Assembly: GCF_029714305.1 (NCBI RefSeq)
Contig: NZ_CP121647.1
Location: 5,352,501-5,416,500 of the forward strand
Source: Bradyrhizobium sp. CB3481
Lineage (GTDB): Bacteria > Pseudomonadota > Alphaproteobacteria > Rhizobiales > Xanthobacteraceae
Length of the DNA stretch: 64,000 nucleotides
Direction of reading: 5' to 3'
The notes beneath the pieces were generated by a model, which saw only the letters and a program-made list of their open reading frames with translations, was not told the origin of the DNA and did no database searches. Positions 37,694 to 53,375 of the stretch are shown piece after piece (the stretch's first letter is position 1; every line of letters begins with the position of its first letter). The translations under genes and the position numbers were made by a program.

Positions 37694-37897
37694 AAGCGCT
37701 CTCCTGTATGGACTCGCGCGATCATATAAATGTCACGAACTTGCGTTCCAGAGACTAGTCTCGAGCGAGTCCGCAATCGTAGATTCGCGTCGCTGTGCCC
37801 GGCGTGGAGGCAAACAGTAATGGAGTCTCCCATGGCGCTCCAGCGGCTTGCCCCTGATATTGAGCGATGATGAGCGGCCGGACTGAAGTCGCTGACG

Positions 37898-38413
37898 ATG
37901 CGGCGGAAGACGGCGCAAGCGCTGGCTCTGAGGGTACGGATCGTGCCGACCTGCGCGGAAGGTGGTCAGAACAAGGAACTGGCAGCCAAGCTGGGCCTGG
38001 ACCGAAAGACGGTAGGCAAGTGGCGGCGGCGCTTTGTGGAGCAGCGTGTGGCCAGATTGCTTGACGAGCCGCGCTCCGGAGCGCCGCGCACGATCGACGA
38101 CGTCCGCATTGAAGCTGTGATCGTGCAGACGCTGGAGAGCTGTCCGGAGAACGCCAGCCATTGGAGTTCCCGCGGCTTAGCGAAGGCCAGCGGCCTGTCG
38201 GTATTGACGGTGCAACGTATCTGGCGGGCCTTCGGGCTCCAGCCGCTCCGAATGGACTTTCACGCTCTCGACCGATCCGAACTTTGTGGCCAAGGGGCGC
38301 GACGTCGTAGGCCTCTACGTCTCGCCGCCGGAGCACGCCATCGTTCTGTGTGTGGATGAGAAGTTGCAAATCCAAGCGCTGGACCGCAGTCAGCCGATGC
38401 TGCCGATGCATCC
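37898..38413 (+). pseudogene. IS630 transposase, N-terminal part
   Basis: MRRKTAQALALRVRIVPTCA, then NKELAAKLGLDRKTVGKWRR and THWSS-like [30 protein letters not shown]: helix-turn-helix half of an IS630 DDE transposase. A frame change near 38255 is followed by [20 protein letters not shown] and [16 protein letters not shown], which includes the first catalytic aspartate. It runs into the IS256 at 38422. Confidence 0.85.
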
Positions 38414-38483
38414 CGGGCAGCGAGGGTGTCCGGAACGATATGTAAGTAGGTTTCTGTGAGTTTACCTTTGAGGGGAGACTCAC

Positions 38484-39270
38484 ATGCCGACTGATTCGAC
38501 GATCACTCCTGAACTGCTGGACCAGCTTCTGGCGAACTACAGCAAGCCCGAGGACCTGACGGGCGAGAACGGGTTGTTCAAACAGAGCTTAAGAAAGCCT
38601 TGATCGAGCGAGCGCTTGGGGCCGAACTGACCGAGCATCTGGGCTACGAGAAGGGTGATCCTGGCGGCCGGGGCACTGGCAACAATCGCAACGGGACGAG
38701 TTCGAAGACGATCCTGACCGGGGACGGCGAGATCGAGATTGCCGTGCCGCGCGATCGCGCCGGCAGCTTCGAGCCGCAGCTGATCGCCAAAGGCCAGACC
38801 CGGTTCGATGGCTTCGACGATAAAATCCTGAGCCTATACGCCCGCGGCATGACGGTGCGGGTGATCCAGGGCCACCTGGCCGAACTTTATGGCGCCGAGG
38901 TCTCGCCCGACCTGATCAGCCGGGTGACCGACGCCGTCCTCGAGGAGGTCCGAGAATGGCAGGGCCGGCCGCTCGATGCCGTGTACCCGATCGTGTTTTT
39001 CGACGCGCTGCGGGTCAAAATCCGCGACGAGGGACTGGTCAAGAACAAGGCCGTCTATGTTGCGCTCGCCTACAACAGCGACGGCGAGAAGGACGTGCTC
39101 GGGCTCTGGATCGAGCAGACCGAAGGCGCCAAGTTCTGGCTGCGGGTCGTCAACGAACTGAAGGCGCGCGGCGTCAACGACATCCTGATCGCCGTCGTCG
39201 ATGGGCTGAAGGGGTTCCCCGAGGCGATCACCTCGGTCTACCCGCAAACTCTGGTGCAGACCTGCATCGT
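38484..39270 (+). pseudogene. IS256 transposase, first part
   Basis: MPTDSTITPELLDQLLANYS is a normal IS256 start; near 38580 extra bases (CAGAGCTTAAG) shift the frame once. From LIERALGAELTEHLGYEKGD on, it reads through AVPRDRAGSFEPQLI, FDDKILSLYARGMTVRVIQG, DAVYPIVFFDALRVKI (first catalytic Asp) and VLGLWIEQTEGAKFWL, FPEAITSVYP and LVQTCIV, where the IS1182 begins at 39271. Confidence 0.87.
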
Positions 39271-40815
39271 GGGGTCGTTGAAGAAGCCCGTATCTTCGAT
39301 TGACTCGCGTTCTTGCAAGATGACAGTCGCGCCGTTGGGAGGCCTCAGGTCGAGGCGATCCTTAAACGGCCGATCGTTAGCGTGAGGAGCGAACACGAGC
39401 AAAATGGCTAAAGCGGCTGCGGCCAACCGCTTCAGATTGATAGCAGCGGCGGTCAGGAAAGCCTGGATACGCATGTTGTCTCTGCCACGGCGTATGGCGC
39501 GACGGAGACCGTGCCAAGTCTTGGCTTCGCCATGGACGCCCTCGACCCGCCAACGATAACGCCGATAGAGATGGCGTTCATGCTCCCCCCATCTGAGCCT
39601 CTTGCGCAGCGCTCTCAGTAACGACGGGTGGTTGACATTGAACACGACCACACGAGCGTGGCGGGAGGGGCTCACGCAATGCGGCCGCAGGGAACAGGCC
39701 GAACAGTCTTTGCCACTCGCATGGAAGTGTTGGAAAGAGTCCCGTTGCAGCTTGCCTTTGGGCCGCAGGATCTTGCCGGTTGGACAGCGCACCAGGTTGT
39801 GCTTGGCATCGAGCCTAAAGCGCCGCGTCGGTATGACCTTGCTAGGTTGCCGTTCGGCCTTGGCTGGTACAACGGCATCGATCTGGCGGTCCTCCAACGC
39901 CCGAAAAACCTTAGCATAGGCGTAGCCTGCATCCATGGTCGCCGTCTTAATAGCGACACCGGTTGTCAAGGCGATGGCATCGAGCTGAGCTTCTAGGGCC
40001 ATGCCTTCGTTCTGTTCGCCGGTCGTCACCTCGACGTCGACAACGACGCCCTTCAGATCATCGACAGCCGTATGTTGTTTATAGGAGAGTTCGAGATGAC
40101 GGTTACGACCGTTCGTCGCCATAGTCGCATCGGGGTCGGTCGTGCAGATCTTTTTGTATTTGCCGCTCTGACGGTCTTCCCATCCGAACTCGGATGGATT
40201 CGCCGCATCTACGTCGGCAACATGGCGTACGGCCAAAGCGTCCCAGCTCACATTCGCACGGATGCCGCGCGGCAATTTGGGTGGAAGCGCTCCCCACCCA
40301 GATTGTCGCGCTATACACGGATCAGCGATGCATCGATATGGATGATCTCGCCGGCCACAATCTTGGCTGCTATGCACGCCGTCACGGTGCGTTTGAAGAT
40401 GTTGCGAAAGCGCTCGGCACCCCAGCGCTGGCGAATGCGCGTCAGCGACGAGTGGTCGGGTAGCACCTCGTGCAAACCGTAGCCGACGAACCAACGGATC
40501 GCGAGATTGACCTGCGCCTCGCGTAGCAGCCGTCGATCATGGATGATTCCCAGCAGAAAGCCGGCAACCATGAGCCGAACAGCCACTTCGGGGTCGATCC
40601 CCCGGGCGTCCGATATCTGTGCAGTAGAGATCGGTGACATCGTCACGCAGCCACGAGAGGTCCAACACGCGATCGACACGAGCGAGGATGTGGTCGTCTG
40701 GAACGAGCTGTCGCAACGAACCAGTGATGAACAGCTCCAGCTGATCGCGCTCTTTCCGGCCGAGCATCCTGCCCACCTCGCGAATCAAAGAGAACCGGCG
40801 GGACCAGTGAATCAA
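39238..40815 (-). pseudogene. IS1182 transposase, broken twice
   Basis: GRKERDQLELFITGSLRQLV, then VDRVLDLSWLRDDVTDLYC starts the gene; a frameshift near 40615 precedes IDPEVAVRLMVAGFLLGIIH and LPDHSSLTRIRQRWG (DUF772-type N-terminal part). After IIHIDASLIR the 53-bp mini-element puts in a stop. The catalytic part NVSWDALAVRHVADVD to YRRYRWRVEGVHGEAKTWHG follows in a new frame. The last residues (about 11) are read from IS256 DNA beyond the element end. Confidence 0.85.
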
Positions 40816-40841
40816 CGTCTGCAGACTTCTTCAACAACCCC
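39271..40841 (-). mobile_element. IS1182-type element inside IS256 (level 3)
   Basis: Ends GGGGTCGTTGAAGAAG at 39271 and CTTCTTCAACAACCCC closing at 40841 are inverted repeats (15 of 16). ATCGT stands directly outside both (39266-39270 and 40842-40846), a 5-bp duplication. IS256 reading QTCIV continues as HLIRNSLAFVSWKDRK right after it. Contains one transposase gene on the minus strand, broken by a frameshift and by a 53-bp insertion. Confidence 0.88.
40263..40315. repeat. 53-bp palindromic mini-element with 6-bp target duplication
   Basis: Starts TGCCGCGCGGCAATTTGGGT and ends GATTGTCGCGCTATA; the two halves are imperfect inverted repeats meeting at AGCGCT. CACGGA stands on both sides (40257-40262 and 40316-40321), and removing one CACGGA plus the 53 bp restores the IS1182 reading ASLIR to NVSWD. 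Its ends are the same as those of the IS21 element at 42191-50704 (TGCCGCGCGGCAAT and TTGTCGCGCTATA). Confidence 0.85.
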
Positions 40842-40846
40842 ATCGT

Positions 40847-41086
40847 GCACCTGATCCGTAACAGCCTTGCCTTCGTCTCCTGGAAGGATCGCAAGGCGAT
40901 CCTGCCCTCGATCAAGGCGATCTACCGCGCCGAGAGCGCCGACGCGGCGGCGCTTCGCCTTGCCGAGTTCGAGGCCGAATGGGGCAAGCGCTATCCCGCA
41001 ATCGGCCAGATCTGGCGCAATGCATGGGAGCACGTGGTGCCGTTCTTCGCCTTCGCACCAAGCATCCGCAAGATGATCTACACCAC
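40847..41086 (+). pseudogene. IS256 transposase, second part
   Basis: HLIRNSLAFVSWKDRKAILP, then IYRAESADAAALRLAEFEAE, WRNAWEHVVPFFAFAPSIRK and MIYTT, in frame and directly continuing the first part across the IS1182. It stops at MIYTT where IS110 sequence begins at about 41087; the family reading [12 protein letters not shown] resumes at 51425. Confidence 0.87.
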
Positions 41087-41420
41087 GGATGAGATGGACA
41101 AGCGATTTCTTCATGGCCGAAGCAACGATTGCGGAGATCGCGGTAAGTCCATTCTTTTGTTCGGTCGCGCTGCTGGCCATTCTTCCGTCCCGGCCACCGA
41201 TCTCGCAGCCGACGCGCGCAGGGGCGGTCAAGGCTGGCCGCATTTGCGGCCACCGTATGGCTTGGCCTTGACCGGCCCGAGCACGACGGCACGCTGGCGT
41301 GGAACGGGACTGCGTTCCTGGCCTGGCTAGATCTTGCCGTCAGCCGCGGTTATGGTTGTCAGGCGCGGGCGACCTCGTGGCGAAGCGTGGCGCATCGGCT
41401 GCAAGCGCCACCAGGCTGCC

Positions 41421-42190
41421 CTATTTTGTCCTGCCGAGCTGAGGCGCCCGCGCGCCGGTTTTTGGCCGCCGTGGTTTCCATTGCGTCACCAAGCGCTCGT
41501 AGCTTTGCTCTGCCCGGGCGGCAATCAACATCTCGCGGTCGCGCAGCGCCTTGATGTTGTAGGCATAGGCTGGCCCGCGCCGGCTGCCTTTCTGTTGTGG
41601 ATGCCCGGCTTGAAGCTGCATCGCGCGGGTCTTGTTGGCGACCAGCAATGGGCGCGCCCACAGGTAATCCTCGCCCTTCGTCAACAAATGCCAGCAGAGC
41701 ACCGTGAGCTTGCGAGCCACAGCCACCGCGGCAATCTGATGGCCGCGCCGGGCGCGGATGCGAACGAAAAACGCATGCAGTGGACCGGGCGCCTTGGCCG
41801 CGGCCCAAGCCGCCTCAACCAGCATGGCACGCGCATGACTGCGGCCGATCTTGCTGATGCGGCCGTGGTGGGCGGCTCCCAGCCCGGACTGCCGCACCCG
41901 CGGATTCAGCCCGAAATAGCTCACCAGCTTCTGCGGGCTGTTGAACCGGCTGATGTCGCCGATCGCCGCCACGATGCCGGCGGCGACCGCCAGATTCACG
42001 CCGGTGATCGTCATCAATCGGTTGACCGCGGAATCGTCGATGGCGTTCTGCGCGATCTCGCGGTCGAGCAGGGCCAGGTCTTCCGCCAGCCGGTCAAGCT
42101 CACGGACGTGCCGATCGATCGCCGCGCGCTCATCGTCTGGCAGCTGTTGAGCGGCCAACCACGCCCGGCCGCGAGCGTTGAACAAATCGG
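41421..42190 (-). pseudogene. IS110 transposase, C-terminal part
   Basis: Begins DLFNARGRAWLAAQQLPDDE, carries LMTITGVNLAVAAGIVAAIG and YFGLNPRVRQSG, with the expected serine, and KIGRSHARAMLVEAAWAAAK. It ends at 41421. Rejoined with the N-terminal part at 50711-51182 (ending LLPKCPHADL) through the 6- to 7-bp duplication AAATCGG it would give a normal transposase of about 410 residues. Confidence 0.87.
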
Positions 42191-42273
42191 TGCCGCGCGG
42201 CAATCAGGATGACAGTGGAGCGTCAATCAGGATGAGAGAGCTTCGCGGGGCTCGTGACGCAGGGAGGGCGTAG

Positions 42274-44243
<1,970 letters not shown>

Positions 44244-44277
44244 GAGTCAGATTCATACTACGCATCTCGCTACCCCC

Positions 44278-46347
44278 TTAGAGTTGAAGTTCTTTTTGAC
44301 CCGGATCGCCAGACGATGGCCGCCGGAACCGCCGCGCATGCGCGGCGCGCTTGACATCGGGATGTTCCAGATCAACCGCTTTGATCATCCACGGTGCGCC
44401 TTTGCACAGCTGCTGGGCAGGCAAGCTCTGTTCTTCGATCAGACGGCGAACCGTCGAAGGACTGACTTTCAACGCAGTTGCAGCTTCGTCCAAAGTGACC
44501 TCTCCACGCTCGGCGCGCTCGCCCTCTCGGTAGGCCGCAATGGCGTGTTGATTGCGCAGGCTGCGAACGCGGACACGGGTCCAACTGTTGCCCCGCCCCG
44601 TCGACTTACTGGCGCGGTTGAGAACCGCGGCGATGGTGCTATCGGGCATCTGACGCGCGAGGACACGAACGAGATCGACCACATCTGCTGCGGTGCTCCA
44701 GCGGTGCTCGCCGGTGCGGTTCTTCCTCACCTGCAATGCCGTGTGATCGCCACCATGCCAGTGGACAATCAAGTCCAGCACCTCGTCGTGGATGCGCACA
44801 ACGATCTCATGGATCAAGCTTCGGATGATCCTCTTGCGCGTCGCAGCTGTTGCACCCGGACTTTCCCAAGCTCTCTCGAGATCGGCACCAAGCGCAAGTA
44901 ACCGATCGCGATCGATGTCGCTCAACGTCATCTCCGGCGTAGCCAACAACGTCTCGCGCTCGCCCTCAAGCTCGCGGACAGCGACCAGGCGTTCGTTCCA
45001 GCGCCGCTCCAGCTCGCCGGCAACAAGGCGATTGTCCGGATCGACAGCCTCGTATCGCCGACGAGCGCGAGTTGCCTCGTAGCGTGCCTGCTCCAGAGTC
45101 AACTCGAGCTGACGCAGCTTGTCGGCGTGTTCACGCCCGCGCGCTTCCATGGCCGCCAGTGCCGCCTGTACACCCAGCGGCTGCAGCCGCGCGATGACCT
45201 CCGCGCTGATCGCGCGATCCGCGCGCAGACCGCCGAATGAGATGCACGGGTCTCCACCATGGTTGATCTGGCTACCGCGGCAATGATAGCGCCCGACAGT
45301 ACTGTGCGTGCCGCTGTAGGCAACGTGAAGTTTGCGGCCGCAGTGGCCGCAACGAAGAAGCCCCGCGAGAAGGCCTTCGCCGCGGCGGACCGAGCCACGA
45401 CTCATGAAGCTTTTTCCGTTGGCGTTGTCGGTGATCAGGCGCTGATTCCTCTCGAACTCCGCCCACGTAATGTAGCCCTCATGGTGGTCCTTGATCAAAA
45501 CCTCCCAGTCGTTGCGCTCGCGCCGGAAGCCCCGCACGATCCTCTTGCGGCCGGCCTCGATCGTCACCCGACTGCCCGAGCGCCCGAAGACATAGGCGCC
45601 AGCATAGGCGGGATTGGTCAGGATGTGGTGGATCGTATTGTATACTGGTAACTTCCATTCGACGTGGCGGCCCTCGGGGCCATGGCCGACCGCGGGCAAA
45701 GTGATTCGCTCCTGCCGTAACCAGAGGTGGACCTGGCGCAGTGTCTGCATCTCGGCAAACTTGGTGAACACGAGTACGAGCGCCTCCTGAATGCGCCGAT
45801 CAGGGTCCTTCTCGATCCGATCGTGGGAGACCTTGAGATAGCCGATGGCGACGTTGAGGAAGAGCTCACCCCTACGTGCCTTCTGCTTCAAGGCTTCAAG
45901 CGAGCGTTGCCGAAAGATAGACAGCTCCATCTCGCTCATCGTGCCCTTCATGCCGAGCAGAAGGCGATCGTTGGGGTGGCGCGGATCGTAGACGCCATCC
46001 TCATCGACGATCAGTGTTCCAATGAGCCCGCAGAACTCCAGGAGCGTATGCCAATCCCTGCCGTTGCGGGCCAGCCGAGAGGCCTCAATCGAGACCACAG
46101 CGCCAACTCGCCCTTCGCAAATGGCGGCGAGCAGCTTCTCGAACCCGGGACGCGCGGTGCCGCCACCCGAGCGACCGAGATCGTCGTCGATTACGACCAC
46201 CTCGCTCCAGCCCAGCTGCCGCGCACGGTCGGCCAAGCCGTACTGGCGGCGCTGGCTCTCGCGGTTGTTGATAACCTGGTCGGCCGTCGACTGACGAATG
46301 TAGACGACGGCGTGGCGAGCAAGGTGCTCAGGCGTGATCTTGCTCAT
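44278..46347 (-). CDS. Large serine recombinase of element 1
   Basis: 689 residues. The resolvase domain (about 11-160) has the nucleophile in VVYIRQSTADQV (Ser20), then SRLARNGRDWHTLLE and RLLLGMKGTMSEMELSIFRQ. The recombinase domain (about 180-290) shows HHILTNPAYAGAYVFGRSGS. A zinc ribbon (LRCGHCGRKLHV, later YHCRG) and a coiled coil (about 405-460) follow, then a C-terminal helix-turn-helix (EAATALKVSPSTVRRLIEEQ). All parts of a working large serine recombinase are present. It should cut and join the element ends and target. Upstream accessory gene overlaps its start. Confidence 0.92.
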   Translation of the reverse strand: MSKITPEHLARHAVVYIRQSTADQVINNRESQRRQYGLADRARQLGWSEVVVIDDDLGRSGGGTARPGFEKLLAAICEGRVGAVVSIEASRLARNGRDWHTLLEFCGLIGTLIVDEDGVYDPRHPNDRLLLGMKGTMSEMELSIFRQRSLEALKQKARRGELFLNVAIGYLKVSHDRIEKDPDRRIQEALVLVFTKFAEMQTLRQVHLWLRQERITLPAVGHGPEGRHVEWKLPVYNTIHHILTNPAYAGAYVFGRSGSRVTIEAGRKRIVRGFRRERNDWEVLIKDHHEGYITWAEFERNQRLITDNANGKSFMSRGSVRRGEGLLAGLLRCGHCGRKLHVAYSGTHSTVGRYHCRGSQINHGGDPCISFGGLRADRAISAEVIARLQPLGVQAALAAMEARGREHADKLRQLELTLEQARYEATRARRRYEAVDPDNRLVAGELERRWNERLVAVRELEGERETLLATPEMTLSDIDRDRLLALGADLERAWESPGATAATRKRIIRSLIHEIVVRIHDEVLDLIVHWHGGDHTALQVRKNRTGEHRWSTAADVVDLVRVLARQMPDSTIAAVLNRASKSTGRGNSWTRVRVRSLRNQHAIAAYREGERAERGEVTLDEAATALKVSPSTVRRLIEEQSLPAQQLCKGAPWMIKAVDLEHPDVKRAAHARRFRRPSSGDPGQKELQL

Positions 46348-46789
46348 CGCTGTCCTCCCGGTTCACGTCGTGTGCCTCGACTGCGCTGTCGGTGAGCGCT
46401 TCGGTCAGAAGCTCCTTTAAGAGCTCCAGCATTTGCTGATGGGTTTCGATTGGAATGCTGGTGTATGTCGGAGGGCTCTCGAACAGATCCCCCTGATGAC
46501 GTGATGATCCGCCATGACCACCTCCTCGCGAATGGGACGATTCGCTGGAAGAGGAGGCTAAGAGCGCGTCGACAAGAAGACGCGCCTCCAGTAGACGATC
46601 CACCGGAAGCCGCGGATCAGCTTTGAGATGGAAGGAAGCGGCGGCGGGAGCCGCCATCCATGCCGGCAGCAGCGTTAACGTGGCGTCAGGTTGTCTGATA
46701 ACAAAATGCGTCTCACCCCCAAGCCGCTTGCAGGCGATAACCACGACTGACGCTCCGCATCGCGGATGGAACGGGTAAAGGATCTCCAC
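46328..46789 (-). CDS. Accessory protein of serine-recombinase element 1
   Basis: 153 residues, overlapping the recombinase start by 20 bp. The N-terminal 50 residues (EILYPFHPRCGASVVVIACK, then THFVIRQPDATLTLLPAWM) are collinear with the accessory protein of element 2 (TITDPHHFLFGHRLEVLKER, YVVVALPDGRRRAVRI), sharing P-x-H, Gly and PD positions. I believe this is the family annotated DUF5372, but cannot check. A serine/glycine-rich link follows and a C-terminal helix (HQQMLELLKELLTEAL). Its role is not known to me; control of direction or target of the recombinase is a guess from the constant pairing. Confidence 0.7.
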   Translation of the reverse strand: MEILYPFHPRCGASVVVIACKRLGGETHFVIRQPDATLTLLPAWMAAPAAASFHLKADPRLPVDRLLEARLLVDALLASSSSESSHSRGGGHGGSSRHQGDLFESPPTYTSIPIETHQQMLELLKELLTEALTDSAVEAHDVNREDSDEQDHA

Positions 46790-46830
46790 ATCAGATCCCA
46801 GACACCCGGCATTATGACGCTGGTCCGCCC

Positions 46831-47136
46831 GGCGGCGGCAAGAGCCACTTGGCGGCAGCGATCGGCCTGACCCTGATCGAGAACGGCTGGCGCGTCCTCT
46901 TTACCCGCACCACCGATCTCGTGCAGAAGCTCCAGGTGGCGCGGCGCGAGCTCAATCTCAAGGCGGTCATCAATCGTCTCGATCGCTTCGATCTCATGAT
47001 CCTTGATGATCTCGCTTACGTCACCAAAGACCAGGCCGAGACCAGCGTGCTGTTCGAGCTCATCAGCGCACGCTACGAGCGGCGCTCGATGCTGATCACG
47101 GCCAATCAGCCCTTCGGCGAATGGAACAAGGTCTTC
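46831..47136 (+). pseudogene. istB: istB, second part
   Basis: GGGKSHLAAAIGLTLIENGW completes Walker A, LQVARRELNLKAVINRLDRF and LMILDDLAYVTKDQAETSVL give Walker B, then YERRSMLITANQPFGEWNKV ends at the second serine-recombinase element. In frame with parts one and three once the insertions are removed. Confidence 0.9.
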
Positions 47137-47151
47137 CCAGAACCGATGACT

Positions 47152-47255
47152 TCATGATGCCTCTTTCTTCGAACGCTTAGTGCGTCGTACCCGATTGCGA
47201 AGCTGACTGATTTGTTGGTCTGACAGCTCGATCTGCCATGGCTGGCCTTTGGCTA
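47152..47255 (-). pseudogene. Cut-off C-terminus of recombinase 2
   Basis: Minus strand: AKGQPWQIELSDQQISQLRN, then RVRRTKRSKKEAS and TGA at 47154-47152. It continues the recombinase reading LLARGLLAGRQ across the IS200, and resembles the end of recombinase 1 (CKGAPWMIKAVDLEHPDVKR). The IS200 has parted it from its gene. Confidence 0.8.
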
Positions 47256-47897
47256 ACCAAACCTGCTAAGCCCCCGCCTATGGCGGGGCGAAAACAGGAA
47301 GTTTTACAGCTACGGGAATGAAGTCATGAAGTCTCCTTGGGGAACCGCCAAGAACCCTCAAGGAGACTATGATGGAAGCAGAGTACAATCATCTTAATCA
47401 CGCGACCTGGGATTGCAAGTACCACGTCGTGTTCACGCCGAAGTATCGCAAGAAGCTGCTGTTCGGCAAGATCAAGAGGCATTTGGGCCAGGTATTTCAC
47501 GATCTGGCACGACGCAAGGAGTGCCGGATTGAGGAAGGCCACTTGATGCCCGATCATGTTCACATGCTGATATCGATACCACCCAAATATTCGGTGTCGC
47601 AGATCGTTGGGTATATGAAAGGGAAGAGCTCAATATGGATCGCACAGAACGTCGAACGTAAGATGCGAAATTTCCTGGGCCACAAATTCTGGGCACGCGG
47701 ATACTTCGTCACGACCGTGGGGCGTGACGAGGACATGATCCGAGCCTATATCAAGAACCAGGAAATGGCCGACCAGCAATTAGATCAAATGGAGCTGAAG
47801 ATTTCAGCTACCCCAAGATCCAATCAATCGTCCTAATATCCCTTAAAACCGCCTTTGGCGGTTCCCCATCAAACCTCCAGCTCTGCTGGAGGTTATT
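47256..47897 (+). mobile_element. IS200-type element inside recombinase gene 2 (level 6)
   Basis: About 642 bp with a single Y1 transposase gene and no tnpB. Hairpins mark the ends: CCCCGCCTATGGCGGGG at about 47271-47287 on the left, AACCGCCTTTGGCGGTT (about 47848) and AACCTCCAGCTCTGCTGGAGGTT-type arms (47874-47896) on the right. Joining the DNA outside restores the recombinase frame GRQ to AKGQPW. No target duplication, as expected for this family. Confidence 0.88.
47369..47836 (+). CDS. tnpA: IS200/IS605-family transposase TnpA (Y1 HUH)
   Basis: 155 residues, full length. LMPDHVHMLISIPP carries the HUH pair, IRAYIKNQEMAD the catalytic tyrosine, and YHVVFTPKYRKKLL and KFWARGYFVTTVG are family marks. 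It cuts and joins single-stranded DNA at hairpins in the element ends. GGAG lies before the start, which is ATGATG; either could be used. Apparently intact, and the only fully intact simple IS in the stack. Confidence 0.93.
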   Translation: MMEAEYNHLNHATWDCKYHVVFTPKYRKKLLFGKIKRHLGQVFHDLARRKECRIEEGHLMPDHVHMLISIPPKYSVSQIVGYMKGKSSIWIAQNVERKMRNFLGHKFWARGYFVTTVGRDEDMIRAYIKNQEMADQQLDQMELKISATPRSNQSS

Positions 47898-49897
47898 GGC
47901 TGACGACCCGCCAGCAATCCGCGCGCGAGATAATCGAACACTGTTTGCGGGGTTACTCCAAGCTCAGCCGCAGCGCCCTGAATGGAGAAGCTACCGTCGG
48001 GCCAGCGCATCGGGTTCTTGTCCACGCCGTTGATTTTGACGGTGGGAATGCCCCAACGGGTACGCAGCACCCAGACGTTCTCGCCTTTGAAGGCGCAGCC
48101 TCGGGCCGCGACGAAGCCTTCTTGATTGAGTATTGCCGCGATCTCGCCATCCATTTTGTGTTCAGCATGCAGCTCGAGAATCCGTTGCCGCAACTGATCA
48201 ATATCGACGTAGTCGCGGTAGGTGTGAACGCGCCGTTGCACGTGATGCTCGGTGGTTGCGCCAGTCTGCCAGACGATCTTGAGCCACACCTGACCTCGGG
48301 TCCGCTTCTGATCAAGAACGACTTCGCGGATGACAAATCGCAGAATGCGCTTGCGATCGGCTGCCGACGTGGTGGCCGCGTTCCAAATCCGCGGCAGGTT
48401 CTCGCCGAGCGCTTGTAGCCCTGTGCGTTCCGCCGGGCTAATCAGAAGCGGCTCTTGCGCGCGCCAACGCGCATGCTCCTGCTCGACCGCTTCGACGACA
48501 CGTAGTTTCTCTTCCCAAGCCCGCTCAAGCGAGCGCGCCACAAGCCGGTTCTCGGGCTCTACGGTGTCATATTGACGCCGAGCGCGCTCAGCCTCGTAGC
48601 GGGCGCGCTCCACGCGAAGCGCCCACTGGCGCTCGAGCTGACGACTCTCCTGCTCCAGTTGGCCCGCCGCCGCGAGTGCGATCTCAATCTGATCCGGCAC
48701 CAGAGCATCGAGGACCACCCGCTCGACCAAGCCGTCAACGGCCAAGGCCCGGACTTCCTGGCACAGAACACTGCCTTGCTGGTCCCGATCCGAGCGACAG
48801 CAATAGACCGGATAGTCGGCATTCGGGCCCGTGTAGCGCATGCTCATGCGCCGTCCGCAACGGCCACAGATCGCAATTCCTTGTAACAGGGCTGCCCCCT
48901 TGCGTGGTACGCCAGTGTGTCCCGCCTCATAGCGGCAGACGTTATCTGCCAGTCGCCCCTGGTTGGCCATGAACTCCTCCCAGCTGATATAGCCTGGGTG
49001 AGCGGCGTGCAGGCAAACTGCCCAATCCGCGATCGCCACCTTGACCGTTCCCGTCAGCGATCCCAGCCGACATCGGCTCGGATCCTTCTGCCGGCGGCCA
49101 TAGACATATGCCCCAGCATAGGCCGGATTTTGAAGGATACTAAGGACGCGTGCACTATCTGGCGCACGCCAGACGATCTCGTGTGGAGATGGCCCAAGCA
49201 GCGGTCGAACCGGCAAGGACAATCCGTTCCTGTCCAGGTAACGCATCACACGGCGAGCGCTTTGCAATTCCCGGAATTTGGCGAACACGAGGCGAAGACG
49301 GGCCTGTACCTCCTCATCGGGATTGAGAACAATTGCGCCTGCCCGATCGTAGGCGAGCCCGGCCGGCAGGGGCAGCCGCAACTCACCTCGCGCCGCCTTC
49401 TGGCGCTCGCCTTGATGAAGGCGCATCCGAAGCTGATGCAGCTCCGCCTCGCTCATGATGCCGGACAAGCCCAACAGCAGGCGGTCGTGATAGGCGCGCG
49501 GGTCGTAAAGCCGCTCGCCATCGGCAATGAGCACGCTGAACACCGAGCAAAGTTCGAGAAGCTGATGCCAGTCCCGATTGTTGCGTGCCAAGCGAGAAGC
49601 GTCGAGGCTCACCACAAGACCAGCGTTGCCAAGGCCGATCTCGGCAATGAGCTTCTGGAAACCATGGCGATCCACAGCGCCAGCACCGGATTTGCCCAGA
49701 TCCTCGTCAATAACCTGGACGCGCTCGGGCGGCCAGCCCAGCCCGATGGCGCGATCGACGAGGCGGTACTGTAGCTCCGTGCTCTCCTGGTGCTGGCGCA
49801 CCTGGTTCACGGATGATTGCCGCACGTAGACATAGGCCAACTTCGCTCGGTGCGCAGTCGTGAGCCGCTCGTCAGCGACGTTCAAGCTGATCAGCAC
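47843..49897 (-). CDS. Large serine recombinase of element 2, C-terminus replaced
   Basis: 684 residues from GTG 49897, which overlaps the accessory gene stop (GTGCTGA). Resolvase domain with YVYVRQSSVNQVRQ (nucleophile Ser28), SRLARNNRDWHQLLE and LLGLSGIMSEAELHQLRMRL; recombinase domain with LSILQNPAYAGAYVYGRRQK; zinc ribbon GIAICGRCGRRMSM and CCRSD; coiled coil RQLERQWALRVERARYEAER. A C-terminal helix-turn-helix (GAAAELGVTPQTVFDYLARG) is kept. The last 18 or so residues (ITSSRAGGLMGNRQRRF) come from the IS200 right end, replacing about 35 native ones. It may still be active. Confidence 0.87.
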   Translation of the reverse strand: MLISLNVADERLTTAHRAKLAYVYVRQSSVNQVRQHQESTELQYRLVDRAIGLGWPPERVQVIDEDLGKSGAGAVDRHGFQKLIAEIGLGNAGLVVSLDASRLARNNRDWHQLLELCSVFSVLIADGERLYDPRAYHDRLLLGLSGIMSEAELHQLRMRLHQGERQKAARGELRLPLPAGLAYDRAGAIVLNPDEEVQARLRLVFAKFRELQSARRVMRYLDRNGLSLPVRPLLGPSPHEIVWRAPDSARVLSILQNPAYAGAYVYGRRQKDPSRCRLGSLTGTVKVAIADWAVCLHAAHPGYISWEEFMANQGRLADNVCRYEAGHTGVPRKGAALLQGIAICGRCGRRMSMRYTGPNADYPVYCCRSDRDQQGSVLCQEVRALAVDGLVERVVLDALVPDQIEIALAAAGQLEQESRQLERQWALRVERARYEAERARRQYDTVEPENRLVARSLERAWEEKLRVVEAVEQEHARWRAQEPLLISPAERTGLQALGENLPRIWNAATTSAADRKRILRFVIREVVLDQKRTRGQVWLKIVWQTGATTEHHVQRRVHTYRDYVDIDQLRQRILELHAEHKMDGEIAAILNQEGFVAARGCAFKGENVWVLRTRWGIPTVKINGVDKNPMRWPDGSFSIQGAAAELGVTPQTVFDYLARGLLAGRQPITSSRAGGLMGNRQRRF

Positions 49898-50379
49898 GAC
49901 CCAGTCTCCTTCCGGGCGTGCCGGGAACCGCTTGCATTCGCCGCAGCAGCGTGGCGAAGGTTTGAGCGATCTGGGCTTGCGTCGCGATCGACAGATTCGG
50001 CCACAGGCGCGGAATCTCGGCCGTCGGACAGCGGGGTGGATTTGCCAGGGTTGGCAGGGGTCGATACGCAACGCGACCTACAAGTGGTCGGTGGGTCATC
50101 GCGAATCACCTTCTCGTCGAGAAGACTCAGACTCGCGCTCAAATGTTGCATCAATGGGATCAGCGTACGTGCACTGATGCGCGGCAGACCGGCGGCATTC
50201 GGACGGAAGGTGATTGGCGTATCGCCAAGATCCGTCGATGCGATCCGAACCGCCCGGCGCCGTCCGTCCGGCAGCGCGACAACGACGTAGGTGGGACCGC
50301 GTCCCGACCGCTCCTTCAGCACCTCAAGCCGGTGCCCAAAAAGGAAATGATGCGGGTCGGTGATCGTGACGTGAGACAC
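49891..50379 (-). CDS. Accessory protein of serine-recombinase element 2
   Basis: 162 residues from GTG 50379, placed because the frame upstream runs into istB DNA. VSHVTITDPHHFLFGHRLEV and YVVVALPDGRRRAVRIASTD match the accessory protein of element 1 residue by residue in layout. The rest is helical (LIPLMQHLSASLSLLDEK) and then polar. Its stop lies inside the recombinase start, so the two are translated together. Function unknown; see element 1. Confidence 0.72.
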   Translation of the reverse strand: MSHVTITDPHHFLFGHRLEVLKERSGRGPTYVVVALPDGRRRAVRIASTDLGDTPITFRPNAAGLPRISARTLIPLMQHLSASLSLLDEKVIRDDPPTTCRSRCVSTPANPGKSTPLSDGRDSAPVAESVDRDASPDRSNLRHAAAANASGSRHARKETGSC

Positions 50380-50411
50380 GATCCGCTCAAGAATAGGGGT
50401 ACTCTGTCGTG

Positions 50412-50576
50412 TTCGGCGACCCCGCCATGACCCTCGCCGCCATCGATCGCCTCGTTCACCACGCCACCATCTTGGAGATGAACGTCGAGAGCTATCGCAG
50501 GCGCACCGCCCTCGAACGAAAGCGCGGCCCCGGACGGCCGCCTTCGCATGCGACACCCAAAACTGTCGCTGATTGA
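50412..50576 (+). pseudogene. istB: istB, third part
   Basis: FGDPAMTLAAIDRLVHHATI, then LEMNVESYRRRTALERKRGP, GRPPSHATPKTVAD and TGA at 50574-50576: the normal C-terminal end of IstB, continuing part two across element 2. The three parts together make about 272 residues, the expected length. Confidence 0.88.
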
Positions 50577-50710
50577 CGCTCCGCGACAATCAGAGCCAAC
50601 AAAACTCTTGCGCGCGACAATCATCGCGGCAATCATCACCTCGCCGCGACACCGACTCGCCATCCTGATTGTCGCGCGCTTCCCACCCAGATTGTCGCGC
50701 TATAAATCGG

Positions 50711-51182
50711 CGTGCGGGCACTTCGGGAGCAGGTGCGCGTGCAGGATCGAATGCACCTCGTTCTTGAGCCGCGTACGGTGCCGCACGACCTGGTAGCGCC
50801 GCGCCACCAGCCTACGCTTGCGTTCAGTCTCCGCATCAGGTGTCCAGATCTGCGGCAGGTACCCGGCCGCCTGCAGACTGGCGAGCGTGCCGGCATCGAT
50901 CTTGTCGGTCTTGACGTGAGCCTGGGCGATCGCCTTCACCTGCAGCGGATTAGCGATAATCACCCGTGCCACGAACGGCGCCAGCACTCGCGAGGCCGCC
51001 ATGCTGTTGGCGGTCGCTTCGACCACCACCTCATCACTGGCCAGCAGGGTCTTGCCAAATCCCTCCAACGCAGTCCGCGTCATATCAATGCGGCCCGCAT
51101 GTCGGAGCCTGCCGTCTTCCCAAAACACCACCTCCCCGAAGGTTCGGTGGACATCAATGCCAATTACCCGTCGCATTCGCAC
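50711..51182 (-). pseudogene. IS110 transposase, N-terminal part
   Basis: MRMRRVIGIDVHRTFGEVVF begins at 51182; IGIDVHR, VVEATANSMAASRVLAPF and KTDKIDAGTLASLQAAGYLP are the DEDD motifs. It breaks at LLPKCPHADL, where the IS21 has entered; the C-terminal part lies at 41421-42190. Downstream of it on the plus strand (51183-51424) is non-coding DNA of the element. Confidence 0.87.
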
Positions 51183-51424
51183 CTCCTCCTGCCAGACACA
51201 TGACGGGAGCTGTCGGGCGACACGACAACTACGGATTCGCGCTCTCGGCGCAACCGGGCGAGTCGCAGAGGCGGCCAGCTACTAACTCGAGCTCTCGGCT
51301 CATCGTGTGTATCGGCCTGCCCGCACATCGTGCTCCCGGTGCCTCTGTCCCGATGGTCGCACCATACGCTACGATGTAGAATACCGCAGCGGAACGTTGG
51401 CACCGAGACATCTCATACCGGTTA

Positions 51425-51630
51425 CCAACGCGGTCGAGGTGCTGCACCGCAGCTTGCGCAAGATCATCAAGAGCCGCGGCAGCTTTCCGGCCGACGAGGC
51501 GGCGCTCAAGCTCTTGTATCTCGCCATCAAGAACGCCGGCGTTCATTGGTGGCGGCCGGTCGAATGGACCGCCGCCATGGGGCAGTTCGCCATCCACTTC
51601 GGTGCGCGGTTTCCAGGAACCGCCCGCTGA
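51425..51630 (+). pseudogene. IS256 transposase, third part
   Basis: [20 protein letters not shown] to [10 protein letters not shown] and TGA at 51628-51630: the C-terminal end of IS256, in frame with MIYTT at 41086 when the IS110 is removed. Nearly the same as the end of the deleted IS256 at 19.6-19.8 kb. Confidence 0.88.
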
Positions 51631-51857
51631 TGAGCACAATCGACATCACGGCGCCGACGATGATCGCTTGGTCCGAACCTTCGCCGTCAAGCCCCGCGCC
51701 TGCGGCGCGCCGCTGCGCGGCTTCGGGGCTTGACCGCTCGGTCCGGCCAAGCAAAGTGGTCGGCTATGCCGTCGATGCCACCAGTCAATATCTCAAATAC
51801 CAACTTCAACCTTCACAGAAATCGCTTACACAAAATTTCGGACATTCCCCGGGCAGC

Positions 51858-52380
51858 CGGCCCGAAGGAGCCATCACTACAGAAAGCACGGCACCCCATC
51901 GCTGTTCACCGCCCTCGACATCGCGACGGGGACGCATCATCGGCAGGTGCTATGGACGCCATCGGGCTGCCGAGTTCCGCAAGTTCCTCGACGAGATCGA
52001 GGCCTCGGTGCCGCGCGAACTCAACGTCCATCTCGTCATAGACAACTACGTCACGCACAAAACCCACTGATCCCCAGATGGCTGGCGAAGAGGCCGCGTT
52101 GGCACCTGGACCTGACCCCGACCGGTTCGTCATGGCTCAATCAACTCGAGCGCTTCTTCGCGCTCCTCACCGCTAAGAAGATCAGGCGCGACATCTATCG
52201 CAGCGTACCCGCCCTCAGGGCGGACATCACCTCATTCATCGACAAGCACAACGCCGATCCCAACCCTTCGTATGGACCAAATCCGCCGATGACATACTTG
52301 CTTCCATCGAACGCTTCTGTCGATACAATGCTCCGCCAAAACACGAAACGATATTGCGAACCTCTGGTTCAGGACACTAG
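51858..52380 (+). pseudogene. IS630 transposase, C-terminal part
   Basis: After the IS256 the IS630 goes on: [50 protein letters not shown] (second catalytic Asp), a frame change near 52068, then WHLDLTPTGSSWLNQLERFF (Glu) and RADITSFIDKHNADPNP. A further shift gives SDDILASIERFCRYNAPPK and TAG at 52378-52380. Several frame changes make it dead. Confidence 0.85.
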
Positions 52381-53326: not shown

Positions 53327-53375
53327 TGCAAATGTGGCCGCCCGATCGCCAAGCAGGGCTAACCGAGCCTTTCTA

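Follow-up and report, generated by a model that had tools for sequence, protein, structure and literature searches.

We analyzed a nest of mobile elements in a 64,000-nucleotide stretch of the Bradyrhizobium sp. CB3481 genome (contig NZ_CP121647.1, positions 5,352,501 to 5,416,500; hereafter the window), and consider it very probable that this nest arose largely by a succession of insertions addressed to mobile genes. Judged from their junctions, four of its layers appear to be addressed: (i) an element encoding a DDE_Tnp_1_6 transposase, which we take to belong to the IS1182 family; (ii) an IS110 element; and (iii) and (iv) two elements that each carry a gene for a large serine recombinase (LSR), referred to as LSR elements 1 and 2. 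What is directly seen is that the position is fixed, that the elements are uniform in size, that crossover bases are shared in the window and that events were repeated in diverged targets. In the following, labels consisting of L and three digits denote stretches fetched from the CB3481 genome or from other genomes, and own copies are those inside the CB3481 genome.

The three own copies of LSR element 1 have each entered a different, diverged istB gene, every time at the same codons of the Walker A loop and with CC at both junctions. While the elements are 99.5% alike and their recombinases 99.7–100% alike, the host istB genes resemble the window-type IstB by just 37–50% of residues. The closest named relatives of LSR 1 are from Bradyrhizobium. 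In a scan of GTDB genomes, 160 loci encoded LSR 1 relatives, of which the best 80 were kept, and targets were called by a flush-half test with separate profiles for each half of a gene. By a stricter automatic rule, an IstB or a TnpC gene is split into flush halves in 54 of the 80 loci (27 IstB, 27 TnpC). A looser profile test gave two-sided calls in 56 of the 80 (29 in IstB, 21 in TnpC at the FAGSD codons, and six in TnpC about 14 residues upstream) and one-sided calls in a further nine (four IstB, five TnpC). With the stricter rule, 56 values were obtained for the gap between the halves; all but one fall at 2.45–2.71 kb, the remaining one being 3.36 kb. None of 50 control loci passed the stricter rule, although these form a weak control, being short stretches centred on IS110 or IS1182. 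Pfam assigned DDE_Tnp_IS66 to all nine right-side tnpC flanks submitted and to four of ten sequences in a second set.

Same-codon insertion is not limited to the LSR elements. Relatives of the window IS110 (E ≤ 1e-140) were found in 27 of 146 genomes of the genus, CB3481 included, and 30 loci were fetched. In all 22 loci for which both ends could be read, the element has entered an IS256-family transposase gene at its TN[PA][ILV] motif. The sequence to the right of the element encodes TN[PA][ILV][EG], and the last codons to its left are the corresponding [ST]T, with the left frame shifted in L184. Among the eight other loci, the left flank is IS256-like by eye in L176, L191 and L194, and two gave no end. 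Fifteen of the 146 genomes contain relatives of IS1182 (E ≤ 1e-60); in 18 of the 20 loci taken, some of them read from one end only, the element lies at the VH[FL][MIL][RG]N motif, in both orientations. NCBIfam recognized an IS256 transposase in nine of ten flanking frames submitted, the right half of L173 giving no match. The break falls at position 301 of the IS256 profile for IS110 (four of four left halves) and at 211–216 for IS1182 (five of five).

These results bear on the possibility that the nest is a neutral pile-up, in which insertions are tolerated on a non-essential island and the nesting is due solely to this tolerance together with a high density of insertion sequences. The neighbourhood is indeed crowded, as 63 of 64 matches to the nest fall between 5.09 and 5.85 Mb of the 8.04-Mb contig, and the IS21 and IS256 copies examined sit in varied sequences, mostly with duplications of their own. 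Tolerance does not, however, account for hits at the same codons and the same profile positions in diverged genes, as found in the 54 split genes, the 22 IS110 loci and the 18 IS1182 loci. A pile-up still stands for IS21 and IS256, whereas the data on IS1182, IS110 and both LSR elements contradict it; for the nest as a whole we regard it as improbable. The initial annotation of the window had attributed the depth of the nest to a safe landing place, an explanation that is not supported, since elsewhere in the CB3481 genome IS1182, IS110 and both LSR elements again occupy the motif and gene family that they occupy in the nest, and relatives of IS1182, IS110 and LSR element 1 do so in other genomes too.

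Named plasmids provided further cases of addressed insertion. Of 377 plasmid records matching LSR 1, 60 were listed and eight, picked for spread, were fetched. Both halves of a split istB flank the element in Sinorhizobium meliloti pMl1, Paraburkholderia sabiae pPs24235_2 and Bradyrhizobium sp. 26S5 p26S5b, and both halves of a split tnpC do so in Bradyrhizobium barranii pBb323S2a, S. meliloti ml59 pSymB and Microvirga ossetica unnamed2. In Rhizobium bangladeshense p3 the element adjoins an IS66 tnpB that is short at its N-terminus, while for Azospirillum sp. B510 pAB510f the target gene could not be called.

When targets were mapped on a tree of 83 recombinases, 19 label changes were required, as compared to a mean of 44.9 for shuffled labels, and none of 200 shuffles gave a value as low; target type tracks the LSR tree. 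The IstB Walker A label is found on alphaproteobacterial, betaproteobacterial and acidobacterial rows and needs eight changes. Twenty-two of the 23 rows labelled TnpC FAGSD form one nested clade, which includes two rows without an assigned target, and the rows for the second TnpC site form another, which includes one such row, plus L145. L145 was mislabelled as to its tnpC site: the gene is broken at the second one, consistent with its position in the tree. The row OWN_el4 contains nine stops (a frame shift) and is unreliable, and long branches, including the rows for elements 2 and 4, are unsure. The simplest reading would be an old IstB specificity with rare switches to other insertion-sequence genes.

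Other LSR elements likewise sit in transposition genes. LSR element 2 is found at the DPxM codons of IstB in all own cases, namely the window, L013 and a left-end fragment in L009. A third element (LSR element 3) interrupts istA between D and KAKVE, with an empty sister site in L059, and a fourth (LSR element 4) lies at the FYN motif of IS3-type transposases in three copies and one remnant; its right junction was read in L052, L055, L056 and L057 and its left junction in L052 and L056. Resolvase N-terminal, Recombinase and Zn-ribbon domains are present in each of LSR 1, LSR 2 and LSR 3. An order-wide sample yielded LSR 2 relatives in 10 of 249 genomes (CB3481 included), with 12 loci outside CB3481. 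These relatives interrupt or adjoin TnpC (both halves in L145; L149), IS3 (L144, L147, L148) and IstA (both halves in L142), and L146 and L152 adjoin IS91-type genes. Taken together, the genes that related LSR elements interrupt or adjoin include istA, IS3, IS66 tnpB, IS91-type and even LSR genes. The last case is L106 (301–4928), which received no call from the profiles: here an LSR element lies inside the catalytic-domain coding sequence of another LSR gene, between SRLARN and GRDW. Further own LSR genes, in L058 and L018, received no target call. In L058 (genome 5452804–5454723; by eye) and L112 (by Pfam), LSR genes are found near group II intron reverse-transcriptase sequence.

The same site in many genes might also mean a single event, if one ancestral insertion had spread by homologous recombination among copies of IS256, IS21 or IS66. 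Mosaic elements fit this suggestion. L024 (genome 5816879–5821714) is an IS256 mosaic with segments of 95–98% identity to the window element and one of 82.8% between IS1182 and IS110, and in L179 the left and right halves come from two IS256 groups. L074 and L075 share the right istB half while their left halves differ, as though halves had been swapped between copies. (Together with L076, these are three LSR copies in one Rhodobacteraceae assembly.) Yet IS1182 occurs at its site in both orientations, being inverted in L009 within an IS256 that is 82–85% like that of the window; very different istB and tnpC genes have been hit across proteobacterial families and Acidobacteria; and nearly identical copies of LSR element 1 occupy the dissimilar istB genes described above. 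We consider recombination a very unlikely source of the shared sites.

The IS1182 of L020 is 99.9% identical to that of the window, whereas the corresponding IS256 sequences are just 82.8–83.8% identical, and the closest relative of the window IS110 (L017; 100/99.7%) sits in another IS256-family gene. Because layer identities disagree and L024 is a mosaic of two IS256 lineages, we conclude that the layers arrived, or were exchanged, separately; a loaded IS256 travelling as a single package is, given this disagreement, not needed to explain them, although it may have occurred. A 53-bp mini-element within the window IS1182 is present, with the identical CACGGA duplication, in the IS1182 of L020 as well, so that it must have been inside IS1182 before at least one of the two landings. 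Containment gives an order that holds at the site, while it does not fix the dates of all arrivals, and the claim of the initial annotation that the order of at least eight arrivals can be fixed was too strong in view of this mini-element and the mosaics.

The six levels and their containment order, by comparison, are borne out by the borders, the target duplications and, for most layers, less-filled sister copies inside the CB3481 genome. L021 is an uninterrupted IS21 with both LSR sites empty; L017, L019, L023 and L024 hold IS110 without IS21; L012 and L020 hold IS256 and IS1182 without IS110; IS1182 lacks the mini-element in L009, L012, L023 and L024; and L013 holds LSR element 2 with an empty IS200 site. 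The existence of these sisters means that the layers concerned are real insertions. No uninterrupted IS256 of the window lineage and no intact IS630 were found among the stretches compared.

Upon re-reading, the previously listed borders, including those of IS1182 with its ATCGT duplication and internal mini-element, proved correct within a few bases (Table 1). The istB cut made by LSR element 2, which had been placed at 47136/50412, is at 47143/50422. The chain of elements as first described was right as to containment and had omitted LSR element 1; istB is in fact cut twice, the other cut being that of LSR element 1 at the Walker A codons.

Table 1. Features of the nest, in window coordinates; a strand given as a point is unassigned.
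Feature	Position	Strand	Remarks
IS630-like element, outermost	37755..52380	.	Damaged frames; interrupted at 38421/51850; outer borders inferred from CTAG at both ends
IS256 element, all inserts counted	38422..51849	+	NF033543 IS256; 8-bp duplication CGGGCAGC at 38414-38421 and 51850-51857
IS1182 element	39271..40841	-	In IS256 transposase motif CIVHLIRN, profile position 216; 5-bp duplication ATCGT at 39266-39270 and 40842-40846
Mini-element (53 bp) within IS1182	40263..40315	.	6-bp duplication CACGGA on both sides
IS110 element, inserts counted	41087..51423	-	In the TTTNAVE motif of the IS256 transposase, between TT and TNAVE; common AC at 41085-41086 and 51424-51425
IS21 element, inserts counted	42191..50704	+	6-bp duplication AATCGG at 42185-42190 and 50705-50710
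istA of IS21	42352-43902
istB of IS21	from about 43899		Broken twice
LSR element 1 (2587 bp)	44243..46829	-	In the Walker A codons of istB, between GPP and G; common CC
LSR 1 gene (689 amino acids)	44278..46347	-	Open frame; Resolvase, Recombinase, Zn_ribbon_recom and C-terminal HTH_17
Small accessory open reading frame (ORF) of LSR element 1 (153 amino acids)	46328..46789	-	Itself without Pfam match
LSR element 2 (about 2.64 kb without IS200)	47145..50422	-	In the DPxM codons of istB, between DP and xM; common CC
LSR 2 frame	47843-50071		Within LSR element 2
IS200 element within LSR element 2	about 47258..47900	+	Y1_Tnp frame 47369-47836

The family assignments rest on domains and ends. The IS256 layer has a Mutator-type transposase and an 8-bp duplication; the IS21 layer has istA and istB genes and a short duplication; the IS1182 layer has terminal inverted repeats in addition to its transposase domain and duplication. 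The IS110 layer encodes a DEDD N-terminal domain and Transposase_20, its L017 copy corresponds to NF033542, and it shares only the 2-bp AC at its junctions with no long duplication, and the IS200 layer has a Y1_Tnp transposase and lacks a duplication. The least secure layer is the outermost. The break in the IS630-like element is marked by the 8-bp duplication, as initially described, while the assignment of the element itself is less firm: HTH_29 and HTH_32 matches were obtained in the left part, a Pfam scan of the right part gave no match, and the frames are damaged, although CTAG is found at both ends.

Since most layers are multicopy in the CB3481 genome, misjoined repeats might in principle have produced the nest as an assembly artefact. 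We hold this to be extremely improbable, as duplications are perfect at four layers, the sequence is a single 8.04-Mb contig, and the same junction types recur in other genomes and in closed plasmids.

The statement that such depth is rare is doubtful, as CB3481 holds similar stacks at 5239036–5245385 (L009) and 5828241–5837585 (L060). In L009 an istB holds an IS256 at its Walker A codons, and this IS256 carries the inverted IS1182; the stack also contains LSR element 1 and the left end of LSR element 2. In L060 an insertion of LSR element 1 breaks istB, and a second break seems to be due to another IS21-type element, whose own istA holds LSR element 3.

Mini-elements of about 53 bp with short flanking duplications are found in L020 and L018 (5590783–5590836) as well as in the window. 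Their ends resemble those of IS21 and of a 1.8-kb insertion sequence. An origin solely from IS21 was rejected for the window mini-element, as its left end differs from that of IS21 and exactly matches a left end in L017 that belongs to an insertion-sequence type of about 1.8 kb with a 504-amino-acid integrase. One copy of this type extends from window position 53374 onward, and members sharing mini-element-like ends are also present in L027 and L017.

Several observations weigh against a chain of addressed insertions or limit its reach. IS256, IS21, IS200 and the mini-element are not among the layers with demonstrated targeting. The choice of LSR 1 loci was biased, the 80 having been picked by their likeness to LSR 1, and several of the IS110 and IS1182 loci are near-duplicates (for IS110, L187–L189, and L173 and L200). 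Fifteen of the 80 loci (L062, L104, L106, L112, L115, L116, L122, L123, L124, L126–L130 and L133) have no assigned target. For ten of these (L104, L112, L123, L124, L126, L127, L128, L129, L130 and L133) Pfam detected no transposase in the flanks, the upstream flank of L112 giving a group II intron reverse transcriptase. Because host-type genes adjoin some such loci (an outer-membrane barrel in L123, a sigma-70 region in L127 and cytochrome c in L133), other targets of the LSR 1 clade may exist. Both target halves were found in only two of the 12 loci of LSR 2 relatives (L142, L145), and four (L143, L150, L153, L155) yielded no target call. The left flank is unlike IS256 in the IS110 loci L182, L192 and L193, and the motif was not seen at two of the 20 IS1182 loci (L211, L221). 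The circle, the attP and the recombination itself are predicted from sequence. Finally, as a rule both junctions of an LSR insertion carry the same crossover dinucleotide. This is the case for LSR elements 1 and 2 in the window (CC/CC) and for all three own copies of LSR element 1, and GA was found in 18 of 18 loci examined for the tnpC sister clade, whereas the dinucleotide differs between the junctions in 12 of the 24 IstB loci readable by eye (among the 29 with two-sided calls). Such differences could have arisen if the core was mismatched at integration and the heteroduplex was then resolved, or if halves were exchanged later.

If the insertions are addressed as we propose, each LSR element would excise as a circle, and the recombinase would join the attP of this circle to an attB within a conserved motif of the transposition gene of another insertion sequence, with a crossover of 2 bp (CC in the window, GA in the tnpC clade). 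Elements of the LSR 1 clade encode one recombinase of about 690 amino acids and mostly one small ORF, leaving no space for cargo. Homologues of the accessory ORF are present in 58 of the 80 loci, and some of its database homologues carry DUF5372 (PF17342); its predicted structure is of low confidence (mean predicted local distance difference test score 64.6) and gave no match in the PDB at E ≤ 0.001. Since the C-terminus of LSR 1 matches HTH_17, with an excisionase-family match below threshold, one may speculate that this domain or the accessory ORF might control excision. The IS110 family is known to choose its sites by means of a bridge RNA, and the IS110 element would find its site in this manner. 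As the targets are conserved, multicopy, mobile and dispensable for the host, newcomers would usually find a site at little cost to the host and may travel with the element that they enter. Nests would deepen because a layer can carry the target for the next layer, and since each insertion breaks the transposition gene of its host element, it should act as a brake on that element.

LSRs, the guidance of IS110 and nested insertion sequences are already known. Searches of an open-access library brought up no description of LSRs that target transposition genes as a family, although subscription papers, insertion-sequence databases and preprints could contain one. A survey of LSR targets names a Mg-chelatase/protease family, prolyl isomerase and competence genes (PMC10083194), and neither istB nor "insertion sequence" occurs in its main text; "serine recombinase" does not occur in the accessible text of PMC3281130. 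Like the LSRs of phages and integrative elements, those described here combine Resolvase, Recombinase and Zn-ribbon domains and use a conserved coding site, and different LSRs share one target gene; unlike LSRs with the targets just named, the CB3481 element is a 2.6-kb unit whose targets are transposition genes (PMC10083194). IS607 is likewise an insertion-sequence-sized unit moved by a serine recombinase, but its transposases are described as having an inverted domain order and minimal target specificity, whereas the CB3481 elements have a large recombinase and a fixed target (PMC4058570). The CB3481 IS110 resembles the bridge-RNA elements in its transposase (NF033542), so that RNA-guided site choice is expected, and differs in that its target is the transposase motif of another insertion sequence (PMC11208158). 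Insertion sequences aimed at repetitive extragenic palindromes also use a repeated, conserved genomic target, which in CB3481 consists instead of conserved codons of mobile genes (PMC1525189).

Beyond the window, we lean towards a broader proposal, in which minimal LSR insertion elements form a widespread guild whose main hosts are other insertion sequences, the recombinase of each clade having evolved an attB within a conserved motif of one transposition gene and rarely switching prey, with IS110 and IS1182 preying on IS256 and nests forming a fossil record of such food chains. The target motifs of this putative guild would comprise the Walker A and DPxM motifs of IstB, K[AG]KVE of IstA, two sites in IS66 TnpC, IS66 TnpB, the FYN motif of IS3, IS91 and other LSRs. 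If the guild is real, insertion sequences would be silenced while their multicopy spread is exploited. Addressed insertion as proposed for the window, with conserved motifs in transposition genes as the addresses of other elements, supplies a mechanism for deep nesting. It makes testable (i) whether insertion sequences are held in check by natural enemies that act sequence-specifically; (ii) how an LSR changes its target, as from IstB to IS66 TnpC within one lineage; and (iii) whether LSRs with known, conserved coding attB sites can be used as integration tools.

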